The notes under the pieces were generated by a model that had not been told where the DNA came from, made no database searches, and was given only the letters and a program-made list of their open reading frames with translations. The position numbers and the translations under genes are program-made. DNA of 37,673 nt from Armatimonadota bacterium (lineage in GTDB: Bacteria > Armatimonadota > JAAZEB01): positions 1 to 37,673 of the forward strand of contig JAAZEB010000144.1 of the NCBI GenBank assembly GCA_012512505.1, in the 5' to 3' direction. How positions within the stretch are numbered: position 1 is the first letter of the stretch; every line of letters starts with the position of its first letter. Shown piece after piece: positions 12,929 through 37,500 of the stretch.

Positions 12929-13945
12929 ATGAATATCGGCCTGGTGGGTCTTGGGTTCATGGGGGTCACCCATTACCGCGCGATTAAGCGCATTGACGGC
13001 GCCCGCGTTACCGCCCTCTGTGAGGCGAATGAGAAGCGGCTTGGCGGCGATTGGACGGATGTCCAGGGCAACATCGGCGGCTCCGGTGGCGTCGAGGATG
13101 TCAGCGGCATCAACAAGTACACCCGCCTCGAGGATTTCCTCAAGGATCCCGACGTGGAGTTGGTGGATATCTGCCTGCCCACGCCGTTCCACCGCGACGC
13201 GGCCATCCAGGCGATGGAAGCCGGCAAGCACGTCCTCGTCGAGAAACCGATTGCCCTCACGGTGGCCGATGCCGACGCGATGGTGGAGACCTCGCGGCGC
13301 ACCGGCCGCAAGCTGATGGTGGCGCAGGTGCTGCGCTTCTTCCCCGAGTTCGCCTACCTGAAGCAGCTCGTCGATTCCGGAGAGCGCGGCGCCCTCCTCG
13401 GCGTCCACCTGAAGCGCATCATCGCCCGACCGAAGTGGTCCACCGGCGGCTGGCTCTCCGACCCGAAGCAGACCGGTGGCGTGGCCCTCGACCTGCATAT
13501 CCACGACTCCGACTTCGTGCGCTACCTGTGCGGGATGCCGGATTCGGTGCAGTCTACCGGCGTGATCCAGGGCGAGGATGAGGTCACCTACATGGCGACC
13601 CTCTATCGCTACGACAACCGCAACGTGGCCGTCAGCGCCGCCAGCGGCGCCGTTGCCGCCGACAGCGCCAAGTTCGAGCAGGGCTACGATGCCTACTTCG
13701 AGAAGGGCACGCTCCGCTTCAACTCGATTGATGAGGTGCCCCTGACACTGTTCACCGACGAAGGCAAGCAGAAGGTGGACCTGCCGGACGTGGATGGCTG
13801 GCAGGAAGAGATCACCTACGCGGTGCGCTGCCTTGAGGCCGGCCGCGAGCCGGAGATCATCTCCGGGGCGTCCGCGCGCGATTCGCTCTACCTCTGCTTG
13901 AAGGAGTTGGACGCGGTGCGTGCCGGCGCGCCGGTGCGGCTGTAG
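12929..13945 (+). CDS. Gfo/Idh/MocA family oxidoreductase
   Basis: This 338-residue dehydrogenase is distinct from the one at 8960. It has the Rossmann start MNIGLVGLGFMGVTHYRAIK, the catalytic-lysine motif VEKPIALTVADADAMVE, and the C-terminal domain with GGVALDLHIHDSDFVRYLCG, which places two histidines in the active-site region. It likely acts on a sugar or cyclitol with NAD(P). The ATG at 12929 has AAAGGA seven bases upstream and follows a good promoter with a ~110-base leader. It appears to be a single-gene unit: the next gene, serS, lies 275 bases on with its own leader hairpins. Confidence 0.93.
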   Translation: MNIGLVGLGFMGVTHYRAIKRIDGARVTALCEANEKRLGGDWTDVQGNIGGSGGVEDVSGINKYTRLEDFLKDPDVELVDICLPTPFHRDAAIQAMEAGKHVLVEKPIALTVADADAMVETSRRTGRKLMVAQVLRFFPEFAYLKQLVDSGERGALLGVHLKRIIARPKWSTGGWLSDPKQTGGVALDLHIHDSDFVRYLCGMPDSVQSTGVIQGEDEVTYMATLYRYDNRNVAVSAASGAVAADSAKFEQGYDAYFEKGTLRFNSIDEVPLTLFTDEGKQKVDLPDVDGWQEEITYAVRCLEAGREPEIISGASARDSLYLCLKELDAVRAGAPVRL

Positions 13946-32280: not shown

Positions 32281-34695
32281 CTACGGCAGCGCGGCGGCGC
32301 GGCGGAAGGAGCCGCGCGCTAGGTCGGTCGCCCAACGGTTGCAGACCGGGCCGGCGGCGTTGAAGAGGACGCCAGCGGCGCCTTCCTCCTGCAAGGCGCT
32401 GATCATCGTCATCGCGTGCCGCGCCGTCCGGATCCGCGCCGTATCCACCACCGGGAGCACGGCGATCCTGGGCGCCAGGCGGCTGACCCGCACCGCCGCT
32501 TTGCGCGCCTGCGCCGGCTCCGCCGTGTGCGTCTCGATGCAGACGCCGTTGAACCAGCCCGCCTGTGTCCAGGCGCGCCAGTCGGCGACGGTGTCGGTGC
32601 GCGGGTCCACCGTGGGGGCGCTGATGCTGATGTAGATGCGTCGGTTTGGCTGCTGGGTGCGCAGGTCGCGCTGCACGCGCCGCACCAGGGTTGTCACCCG
32701 CTCGCGCCGCCAGCGCAGCCACTCACGCTCCCACTCGCCGCGCAACTGCTCCGCCTGGGGGTTGCGGCCGGTGTCGGCCCGGAAGAGCGCGACGCAGGTG
32801 CGGCAGTAGCAGACATCACGCGCGCCCTCATAATCCACGCCGCTCAGCAGAATCCCCTGCAGGCCCGGGTCGCCCGCCGCTTTGCGGATGCCCGCGCAGA
32901 TCGCTTCGCGCGCTTCGGGCTGTGACGGGCAGATCCAGTGCTGACCGCCCGCGACGAGCCGGCTTCCCTTGCGGGTGAGCGCCGCCCGCGCCGGCTGGGC
33001 GCTGAGAACCCCCGTTTTGCCACCAACGGCGCCGCCGGAGAGGAGCGAAACCCAGCCGTAGACGGCAATCCCGCGCGCTGGCGCCTCGGCCAGCAGCGAC
33101 ACTAGTGGGTCATGACCCTTGAAGCGCGGGTCCTGGTTCGGGCCGGCCGCCAGCGTCAGGCCGGCGGAGTAGACCTCTGGGAAAACGGCGTTCACTCCGG
33201 CGGCGGCCAGGCGGTCCAGCAGTTGGCCGATGGCAGTGCGCGATGCCGGGAGCGCGGCGCGTGGGAGCAGCACGCCACGCACCTCGCTGGTGCGGCAGGG
33301 GAAGCGCAGCAGTGCCACCCGCTCGGCGGCATCCAGCGCCTCGCGGATCACCGCCAGAGTGTCGGCCGACAACGGCGGCAAGGGGGCCGCGGGTGCCAAC
33401 TCAACCCCGGGGATGGCCGGCGAGGCAGACCCCGGCTCGGTGAGCGCCAAGGCGCCCGCAGGCGGGGCGCCGTTCCCTTGCGCTTCGATGACCGGCACTA
33501 CCTGCGCGGCGTTTGGGGCTGCCGCCGGGGGAGCGGCCGGAACCTGCGAGGCCAACTGCACCGCGGCCGCTGCTTTCTGTTCGGCGGCGGCCAGCAGCGT
33601 CGCCGCCTCCGGGTCGGTGCTGGTCGCCGCGATCCGCTTTGCCTCGGCGAGGGTGACCTCCAGTTCGGCCAGCGGCAGGCGCCCGGGGTCGGCGCCGGCG
33701 GCCGGCAAGAGGATCCCGATCGCGTTGGCCAACAGGCGCAGCATCTGGCGCGAGCGCGGCGCCGCCGTCAGCACGTTGGGGGCAAAGTAGATGCAGCGCG
33801 GCGCCGTGAGGATCGCCGGCGAGCGGGTGTCCTGGGCGCCGCCGGCTGGATCTTGCGAGACCCACACCGCCGCCACCTTGGCGCCCGCCAGCGGTTCCAC
33901 CAGGGGCGTGGCGCGATAATCCACGTCCAGGAAAGCAGGCAGCCCGCGGAAGAGCGGCGATCCATCGTTCCCGCGCAGGTAGGCGTTGCCGTCGGCGCTC
34001 CAGCCGGTGACGCGCATCTGCAGCGGCTCGAGCAGGCGGTAGCTGGGGAACGCCGCCTGCCGCCGGGGGGCAACGGCAGCCCCCCAGGAACTGGCGATCA
34101 GGCGCCCGCCGCGGCCCACGAAGTCGCGCACGAACGCCGCGCCGGTCACCGTCAGCGGCTGTTCCAGGTTCACCAGCAGGAGCCCGTAGGCATCCAGGCT
34201 GCCGGTGTCCACCTGCTCCGTGGTGACCAGGCGGGCATCATAGCCGGCCCGCTGCAGCAGCAGCGTCAGCTCCGGCAGGCCCACCACGCCCACCACCCGC
34301 GGCACCGCCGGCGCCGCCGGCTCAAGGGGTATGGCAGTGGTCGCGCCCTCTTCCGGCACCGGAGCCTCGCCGGCCGGCGGCGCTGGCACCTCCCCCTCGG
34401 GCGTGGCAGCGGGCGCCTCCTCTACCGGCACCGGGTCGGCCGGCTCCTGCCCCTGTGCCCAGCGCGCACCCCCGCTCCCCAAGAGCGCGAGGAGCAGGCA
34501 CAGCCCGAAGCCAAGGGCCCCCCTGGCCCCCCCTGGCCCCCCCGACCTCGGGGGGGTGGAGGAAGAAGAGGCACCCACGAGCCCCCCCGATTCCGAGGGG
34601 GAGGTGGTTCCCCTAAGCCCCCCCGATTTCGGGGGGGTGGGGGGGGCCGAAAGACCGAGACGGTTCGCAATCCAGGTTGGCAAAGCAACTTTCAT
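32281..34695 (-). CDS. Secreted GHL10/DUF187-type glycosidase-like protein
   Basis: This is an 804-residue protein. Residues 1-16 (MKVALPTWIANRLG...) are basic/polar. Three Gly/Pro/Ser units coded by REP-like palindromes follow (17-58), then a hydrophobic core (60-73, ALGFGLCLLLALLG) with a likely cleavage after WA80. A Pro/Ala/Glu linker leads to a flavodoxin-like domain (about 130-350; LDAYGLLLVNLEQPL, GGRLIASSWGAAV). An Ala-rich helical stretch comes next. The C-terminal barrel (about 470-800) has RGVLLPRAALPAS, LAAAGVNAVFPEVYS and GIAVYGWVSLLSGG, as in glycosyl hydrolase-like family 10, plus a C-x-C-x2-C motif (CYCRTC, near 628). The ATG at 34695 has GGTGAG seven bases upstream. Function is inferred only from fold. 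Confidence 0.82.
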   Translation of the reverse strand: MKVALPTWIANRLGLSAPPTPPKSGGLRGTTSPSESGGLVGASSSSTPPRSGGPGGARGALGFGLCLLLALLGSGGARWAQGQEPADPVPVEEAPAATPEGEVPAPPAGEAPVPEEGATTAIPLEPAAPAVPRVVGVVGLPELTLLLQRAGYDARLVTTEQVDTGSLDAYGLLLVNLEQPLTVTGAAFVRDFVGRGGRLIASSWGAAVAPRRQAAFPSYRLLEPLQMRVTGWSADGNAYLRGNDGSPLFRGLPAFLDVDYRATPLVEPLAGAKVAAVWVSQDPAGGAQDTRSPAILTAPRCIYFAPNVLTAAPRSRQMLRLLANAIGILLPAAGADPGRLPLAELEVTLAEAKRIAATSTDPEAATLLAAAEQKAAAAVQLASQVPAAPPAAAPNAAQVVPVIEAQGNGAPPAGALALTEPGSASPAIPGVELAPAAPLPPLSADTLAVIREALDAAERVALLRFPCRTSEVRGVLLPRAALPASRTAIGQLLDRLAAAGVNAVFPEVYSAGLTLAAGPNQDPRFKGHDPLVSLLAEAPARGIAVYGWVSLLSGGAVGGKTGVLSAQPARAALTRKGSRLVAGGQHWICPSQPEAREAICAGIRKAAGDPGLQGILLSGVDYEGARDVCYCRTCVALFRADTGRNPQAEQLRGEWEREWLRWRRERVTTLVRRVQRDLRTQQPNRRIYISISAPTVDPRTDTVADWRAWTQAGWFNGVCIETHTAEPAQARKAAVRVSRLAPRIAVLPVVDTARIRTARHAMTMISALQEEGAAGVLFNAAGPVCNRWATDLARGSFRRAAALP
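34537..34637. repeat. Three REP-like palindromes within the signal-peptide coding region
   Basis: Near-perfect C7-GA...TC-G7 palindromes occur at 34537-34556 and 34618-34637, with a degenerate one at 34582-34601. Starts are 45 and 36 bases apart, both multiples of three, so all three are read in one frame as P-x-x-S-G-G (Ser at 24, 36 and 51 of the protein). Runs of CCCCCTGG flank the first. The look is that of a dispersed intergenic repeat family, here within a gene. Confidence 0.85.
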
Positions 34696-34744: not shown

Positions 34745-35512
34745 TCACGGCCGGCGGGCGACAAAGTAGAGCCGGTCGCTGTCCGGGTGTGGCGGGCGGA
34801 AGGAGTAGGCCTCGTACACCGCGAGGGTCTCGAAGCCCGCGCGCGCCAACCAGTCCAGCAACTCTTGCTCCGTGTAAGCCCGCTCGTGGTGAACCTCGGT
34901 GAAGTGCTGCACACGCCCCTGCTCGCGCACCCAGAAGTCCATCACCACCTCGGCGATGCCGGTCTCCGCGTTGTAGCTGCTGCGCCAGTCGTAGCGCACC
35001 GGCGCATCGGGATCGAGGCAGTGCTGGGTAAACAGGTTCTCCCGCAGGGCGTAGATTGTGTTCACGTCAAAGATGTAGTGGCCCCCGGGGTGCAGCACCT
35101 GATAGGCCGACGCAAACGCCTGCTGCACGTCGTCTGGCGACAGCAGGTAGTTCAGGCTGTCGTAGAGGCACACCGCCAGGTCGTACCGCTCCGGTAGCGA
35201 CAGGCAGCGCATGTCGCCCTGGAAGAAGGGGATGTCGCGGCGGTAGCGGCAGGCCTTGCGGCGGGCAATCGCCAGCATCGGCGCGGAGAGGTCCACCCCG
35301 GCAACCTCATAGCCCCGGTCGGCCAGGGCGAAGGTGACGTTGCCGGTGCCGCAGGCGATGTCGAGCACGGTGCGCGGGGAGGCGCGCACCTGCTTCAGCA
35401 GCTTCTCCACGTAATCCACCCAGCGGCGGTAGGGCACGCCCGCCATCAGCTCATCGTAGGCCCGGGCCACCTCGGTGAACTGGGGGTGCCGCTCGGCTTG
35501 GGAACCGCTCAT
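34745..35512 (-). CDS. Class I SAM-dependent methyltransferase
   Basis: This 255-residue protein has motif I TVLDIACGTGNVTFALADRG, the acidic VAGVDLSAPMLAIARRKACR (motif II region) and FFQGDMRCLSLPERYDLAVC. A C-terminal beta-rich part (VRYDWRSSYNAETGIAEVVM) shows the pattern of the methyltransferase-25 type. It may methylate a small molecule; the target is unknown. Its ATG at 35512 overlaps the xylulokinase stop by four bases (ATGA), so translation is coupled. The GHL10-type gene follows 49 bases later. Confidence 0.92.
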   Translation of the reverse strand: MSGSQAERHPQFTEVARAYDELMAGVPYRRWVDYVEKLLKQVRASPRTVLDIACGTGNVTFALADRGYEVAGVDLSAPMLAIARRKACRYRRDIPFFQGDMRCLSLPERYDLAVCLYDSLNYLLSPDDVQQAFASAYQVLHPGGHYIFDVNTIYALRENLFTQHCLDPDAPVRYDWRSSYNAETGIAEVVMDFWVREQGRVQHFTEVHHERAYTEQELLDWLARAGFETLAVYEAYSFRPPHPDSDRLYFVARRP

Positions 35513-37168: not shown

Positions 37169-37264
37169 GTTGGGAGACGCCTCCTATGCCGACGGGCCTT
37201 CTCCATTGGGGATGCCCCCATGCCCGACGGGCACCCAGGACGGGTGGCAAAAGACCATTTCCCG

Positions 37265-37500
37265 GGTAGAGCAGCGGAGCGCCGCAGCGATGCGGCTGCC
37301 CGGCAGAGGCCCGATTGCTCGGGCACTCCGATCAGTTGCCTGGGAGAGCAACGGAGCGCCACAGCAATGCGGCCTCCCAGACCGCCGAAGCCCGATTGCT
37401 CGGGCACTCCGGCCAGTTGCCTGGGAGAGCAACGGAGCGCCGCAGCGATGCGGCTACCCGGCTTGCCGGCGCATCGGGGTCGGAGATGCCTACCCTGAAA
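37265..37500. repeat. Tandem ~80-bp repeat, nearly three copies
   Basis: The word CGGAGCGCC recurs at 37275, 37352 and 37433, so the period is 77 then 81 bases. Units share GAGAGCAACGGAGCGCC, a CAGCRATGCGGC block, and in the first two a hairpin GCCCGA-ttgc-TCGGGC (37309-37324 and 37390-37405) followed by GCACTCCG. The third copy loses this hairpin. All copies run in one direction with no unique spacers. No protein-like reading was found. Confidence 0.85.

Follow-up and report, generated by a model that had tools for sequence, protein, structure and literature searches.

Probable Insertion of a Dispersed REP-Like Array in the Signal-Peptide Region of a GHL10-Family Gene from an Armatimonadota Genome

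Introduction

Palindromic repeats that lie in frame within proteins are best known from Rickettsia. RPEs, with a length of approximately 150 bp, were found in ORFs in nearly half of the cases (Ogata et al. 2000, as reviewed in PMC10969869). The REP survey (PMC3733652) describes the GTAG and CGTC super-families, BIMEs and intragenic REP copies in several other bacteria, together with the caution that many "NH2-terminal" REPs are really extragenic, the start of the gene having been miscalled. The window analysed here, a stretch of 37,673 nucleotides (contig JAAZEB010000144.1) from an Armatimonadota genome (G000), holds a gene in which three palindromes separate the start codon from the hydrophobic part of the signal peptide, and raises the question of whether a spreading repeat has invaded a coding region and is translated there. 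It is very probable that the locus carries a lineage-specific, REP-like, non-autonomous array, built as an inverted pair and inserted near the 5' end of the coding sequence for a secreted GHL10-family protein.

The Array and Its Host Gene

Direct reading placed the whole array at 34516..34648 (no strand assigned), a length of 133 bp that comprises an outer arm GGCCCCCC from 34516, three palindromes and an outer arm GGGGGGCC ending at 34648. It forms codons ~17–60, in frame, of the GHL10-family protein encoded on the minus strand. The palindromes P1 (CCCCCCCGACCTCGGGGGGG, 34537..34556), P2 (CCCCCCCGATTCCGAGGGGG, 34582..34601) and P3 (CCCCCCCGATTTCGGGGGGG, 34618..34637), likewise without assigned strand, are translated on the minus strand as TPPRSGG, SPSESGG and TPPKSGG, and come third, second and first in reading order, respectively. 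The initial annotation had placed three C7/G7 palindromes at 34537–34637, where they are indeed present; the C7/G7 form was confirmed for P1 and P3 and is wrong for P2, which is imperfect (C7-GATTCCGA-G5). The centres are 45 and 36 bp apart, the frame-keeping spacing that had been claimed, and the minus-strand translation through the array reads MKVALPTWIANRLGLSA[PPTPPKSGGLRGTTSPSESGGLVGASSSSTPPRSGGPGGARG]ALGFGLCLLLALLGSGGARWAQGQ. Five matches to CCCCCCGATTTCGGGGGG (≤3 mismatches) were counted locally, against 0.13 (sd 0.44) in shuffled sequence. The outer-arm anatomy was also seen in dispersed arrays, and the proposal of repeats inserted in a coding region is retained with one correction, namely that the array is a single element with inverted ends and not three independent units.

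The host gene (32281..34695, minus strand) encodes a secreted protein of 804 aa of the GHL10 family (PF02638), with an ATG at 34695 preceded by an SD-like GGTGAG. Within its signal peptide, the hydrophobic core and the likely region of cleavage, ALGFGLCLLLALLGSGGARWAQGQ (34448..34518, minus strand), were located by a Kyte–Doolittle scan and by an AQG motif that aligned with G002. The Kyte–Doolittle maximum, at ALGFGLCLLLALL, was 2.67, similar to the values of 2.72 and 2.71 for two orthologues, and the n-region measured 59 residues versus 32 in each orthologue. These orthologues (L017 and L018) come from two genomes of the same family, G001 and G002, with identities of 58% and 54%, respectively. 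The Pro/Ser/Gly stretch is missing from both in the alignment, the opposite of what had been named as evidence against invasion (homologues that all carry it); this comparison covers same-family genomes at those identities, and the N-termini of the three proteins align poorly, so that any dating of the event or reconstruction of the original n-region would be tentative. A SAM methyltransferase gene lies upstream (34745..35512, minus strand) and is conserved upstream of both orthologues, whose starts overlap the methyltransferase stop or sit within a few bases of it.

The in-frame starts ahead of the core are the ATG (34695), a TTG (codon 5) and a GTG (codon 40; 34576..34578, minus strand, by direct reading), which lies between P2 and P1 and is the only start downstream of the ATG and TTG yet upstream of the core. 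No ATG, GTG or TTG was found in frame between the array and the core, so that an intact signal peptide would imply translation of the final palindrome in reading order at the very least, and a true start downstream of all the repeats, the other contrary case that had been foreseen, did not come to light. Translation from the ATG would yield peptides such as SGGLRGTTSPSESGGLVGASSSSTPPR from residues 2–39. The codon-usage gene caller put the start beyond the signal peptide, which shows that codon bias is weak in the 5' stretch.

Two more genes carry an array in the n-region of a signal peptide. In a DUF4838/GH2-type protein (L090:6924), the sequence reads MGIRKRVSGPAT[array]RGAALLALFLLLAPASA and all start codons ahead of the core sit upstream of the array, so synthesis of the signal peptide would entail translation of the whole array. 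In the second (L107), two palindromes enclose the ATG, and the n-region contains the last one. The arrangement in L107 is consistent with a different reading of the window gene, in which translation would begin at the GTG at 34578, only the last palindrome would be coding and the array would be mostly 5'-untranslated, its first two palindromes forming an mRNA hairpin. The G-run just upstream of this GTG and the caution about miscalled starts (PMC3733652) argue in the same direction, but one palindrome would still be coding, the ATG has the better SD-like motif and it lies ~50 bp from the methyltransferase stop, nearer as in the relatives, compared with ~170 bp for the GTG. Full translation of an array also appears to occur in L090:6924, which lacks a start between array and core; this case, along with the lack of such a start in the window, answers the caution in part. 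A GTG start is thus considered unlikely, and the evidence favours translation from the ATG at 34695, the normal-looking start of the initial annotation, and hence through the full array.

Copies across the Genome and within Other Genes

The pattern CCCCCCGANNTCGGGGGG was found at 209 sites with ≤1 mismatch in the 5.66-Mb genome, versus 1 for the reversed pattern, and the palindrome at ≤2 mismatches gave 278 sites versus 10 in the control. With ≤1 mismatch, the copies in the same-family genomes numbered 0 (G001) and 3 (G002), and two distant genomes of the phylum held 24 and 8. The latter, G012 (mostly CCCCCCGAAGCCGGGGGG) and G029 (CCCCCCGAAATCGGGGGG), belong to other families, and their copies may be relatives of the repeat, either independent or acquired by transfer. 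PF01797 genes are present in G012. In 1.5 Mb of sampled sequence, 225 palindromes were counted, compared with 11 in the reversed sequence, and they formed 69 arrays. Of these, 57 were intergenic, 9 lay wholly in called genes, in frame, and 3 overlapped genes, the genes having been called by a codon-usage script whose individual starts are uncertain. The dispersal of a mostly intergenic repeat, its near-absence from the same-family genomes and the orthologues that lack the stretch all support the repeat invasion originally proposed.

The same reading applies to further genes, carB and hypF among them, and to the two n-regions described above. In CarB, the translated array lies in the linker before the second half of the protein, and in HypF in the linker before the YrdC-like domain; in both, relatives are without the insert and the site is a variable linker. 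Another translated array was found in the bait-region domain of an alpha-2-macroglobulin (A2M), and further in-frame arrays in URO-D-like, heparinase-like, N6/N4 methyltransferase (N6_N4_Mtase) and FAD-linked oxidase proteins. The FAD oxidase (L078) has the palindrome in a linker that varies across all three genomes. Its G002 orthologue (L208) bears a different repeat-like insert, GGRRQEAGCRMQEVGSNGLRITDYSLP..., in the linker before VALFVDTFVNHN, as if different repeats had invaded this linker in different lineages. A second short repeat-like stretch, gcgaatcgcgaattgcgaatcgcgga (NRELRIADL), lies beside the carB array (L114, ~13560–13600) and is missing in G001.

Other repeats were observed as well. 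At 37253–37454 the window holds a tandem repeat (~81 bp × 2.6) of a second dispersed family (core GCCCGATNGCTCGGGCACTCCGG), which is present in many other stretches of G000. The cca gene of G002 (L018; tRNA nucleotidyltransferase, residues QMYYSIIHYRIMCSTCR) holds an A+T-rich repeat-like stretch, apparently an in-frame insert, which also occurs near the gene and is missing in G001.

Unit Structure and Genomic Position

The unit can be written as [GGCCCCCC-n3]-CCCCCC-RANNYY-GGGGGG-spacer; 42 bp is the spacing seen most often. Left units face right and right units face left: the order A...B was found in 37 arrays and the reverse order in 1, the arrays beyond those 38 having a single orientation only. 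The stem pair adjacent to the loop covaries (G-C 131, A-T 67, G-T 4 and A-C 3), whereas one position further inward the counts are not those of a pair (A-T 99, A-C 51, G-T 46 and G-C 0), which suggests a hairpin whose loop has four bases; both the A...B order and the covariation were counted over related copies, so the events are not independent. The palindromes are stop-free in all frames. Spacings divisible by 3 made up 7/8 of those in genes versus 49/90 of the intergenic ones, a difference in the expected direction, from a sample too small to carry weight. A frame preference within genes (C6/G6 copies in frames 0 and 2, none in 1) was dropped as a rule, as L090:6924 reads frame 1.

Most of the arrays lie just downstream of stop codons, at 16–40 bp, and they are depleted in promoter gaps. 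The distance to a 3' end was ≤40 bp in 39/58 cases, with stop-codon distances peaking at 16–30 bp, and 2/39 arrays lay in divergent, promoter-bearing gaps versus 162/664 of all gaps ≥60 bp. Such clustering, the covarying stem pair and the fold predicted for the window array as RNA (a single long hairpin, z −3.34) would also suit functional RNA elements, that is, mRNA stabilisers or terminators, with the window copy as an operon regulatory hairpin and no chance insertion. Nevertheless, the Rfam search gave no match, no clear T-run followed the hairpins in the arrays read, the carB and hypF copies would break these genes if they were terminators, and a regulatory role fits poorly with the scarcity of the repeat in the same family. 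The functional-RNA explanation is accordingly regarded as improbable, even more so than a GTG start.

For 21/69 arrays, versus 1.7 expected, the end of a stretch was no more than 150 bp away; they break the assembly, and the copy counts are therefore lower bounds. The same figure would allow for a false join of two repeat-bearing contig ends in the window, but G001 and G002 have the same methyltransferase neighbour and the reading frame continues straight into the orthologous signal peptide, which makes an assembly artefact very improbable. The notion that the protein itself evolved a low-complexity linker of Pro, Ser and Gly, its palindromic look owed to G+C-rich codons, draws on the 68.5% G+C of the genome and on the C and G runs that Pro and Gly codons yield, and is scarcely credible in view of the orthologues without the stretch, the excess over both reversed controls and the position of most copies outside genes.

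Comparison with Known Repeat Families

Several traits given for REPs in PMC3733652 were found here: a short extragenic stem-loop with a copy number in the hundreds, an arrangement in inverted dimers and clusters, complementary stem changes, a location just past the ends of genes and in gaps that separate unidirectional or convergent ones, and some intragenic in-frame copies, which for REPs encode 20–80 residues. In contrast, the 5' flank of the stem is CTGG, CCGG, CCAG or CTGA (26, 22, 13 and 8 of 173 unit flanks, respectively), and the GTAG or CGTC tag of REPs was absent beside the stem among the 25 commonest of these flanks. The stem itself differs in being C6/G6, with an ANNY loop and a second C/G outer arm, and Armatimonadota are not among the host phyla named in the available part of that survey. 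In a search of open-licence papers, no account of repeats like these in Armatimonadota came up.

REPINs, mobilised by RAYT (PMC3116915), resemble the element in their basic form of an inverted REP-like pair and in their high copy number within a single lineage, but differ in that no Y1/RAYT transposase (Y1_Tnp, PF01797) was detected in G000 (0 matches in an assembly that is 97% complete, where a gap is possible); PF01797 matches were present in 16/21 genomes searched. Given the missing tag and the lack of a RAYT match, the element was not filed as a REP or a REPIN. RPEs, as described in PMC10969869, share the in-frame insertion in unrelated conserved genes, such as carB and hypF here, and the translation as an extra segment; the present units differ in their length (~42 bp, in arrays), their composition and their mostly intergenic position. 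MITEs have terminal inverted repeats that match an autonomous transposon, and a target-site duplication; here the outer arms (GGCCCCCC...GGGGGGCC) are inverted, and a target duplication, like the exact insertion point, would need close relatives to be read. No autonomous partner or transposase was recognisable among the genes between neighbouring arrays. Two type II pseudopilin-like genes (L112, 10699–11374; L133, 497–1211) each have arrays on both sides. The element works like a REP/BIME and, as the RPEs are, is tolerated in frame in proteins.

Proposed Origin and Significance

According to the insertion model, one array (the inverted pair A...B) would have landed in the GHL10 gene, after the start codon and ahead of the codons for the hydrophobic core. 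Since no frame of the palindromes holds a stop codon and the length of the array preserves the reading frame, the insert would be read through, probably from the ATG at 34695, as a flexible PPxSGG-rich stretch, lengthening the n-region to ~59 residues and leaving the core and the cleavage site intact. The effect on the protein would presumably be close to neutral. Elsewhere in the genome the element is tolerated chiefly just past stop codons and at times in protein linkers and other n-regions, and it may have spread by transposition-like insertion followed by growth through local tandem duplication. More tentatively, and with a fairly low probability, it could represent a tag-less REP-like element spread by some enzyme other than RAYT, with a stop-free palindrome fit for genes and with n-regions and interdomain linkers as recurrent landing places; if this is true, the repeat repeatedly supplies new translated segments to conserved proteins. 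The case presents the spread of an in-frame repeat in an Armatimonadota genome of 68% G+C, without the tags and the transposase by which REPs are defined, and the inserts in several n-regions and enzyme linkers allow a direct test of how well export signals and linkers tolerate such an invasion.
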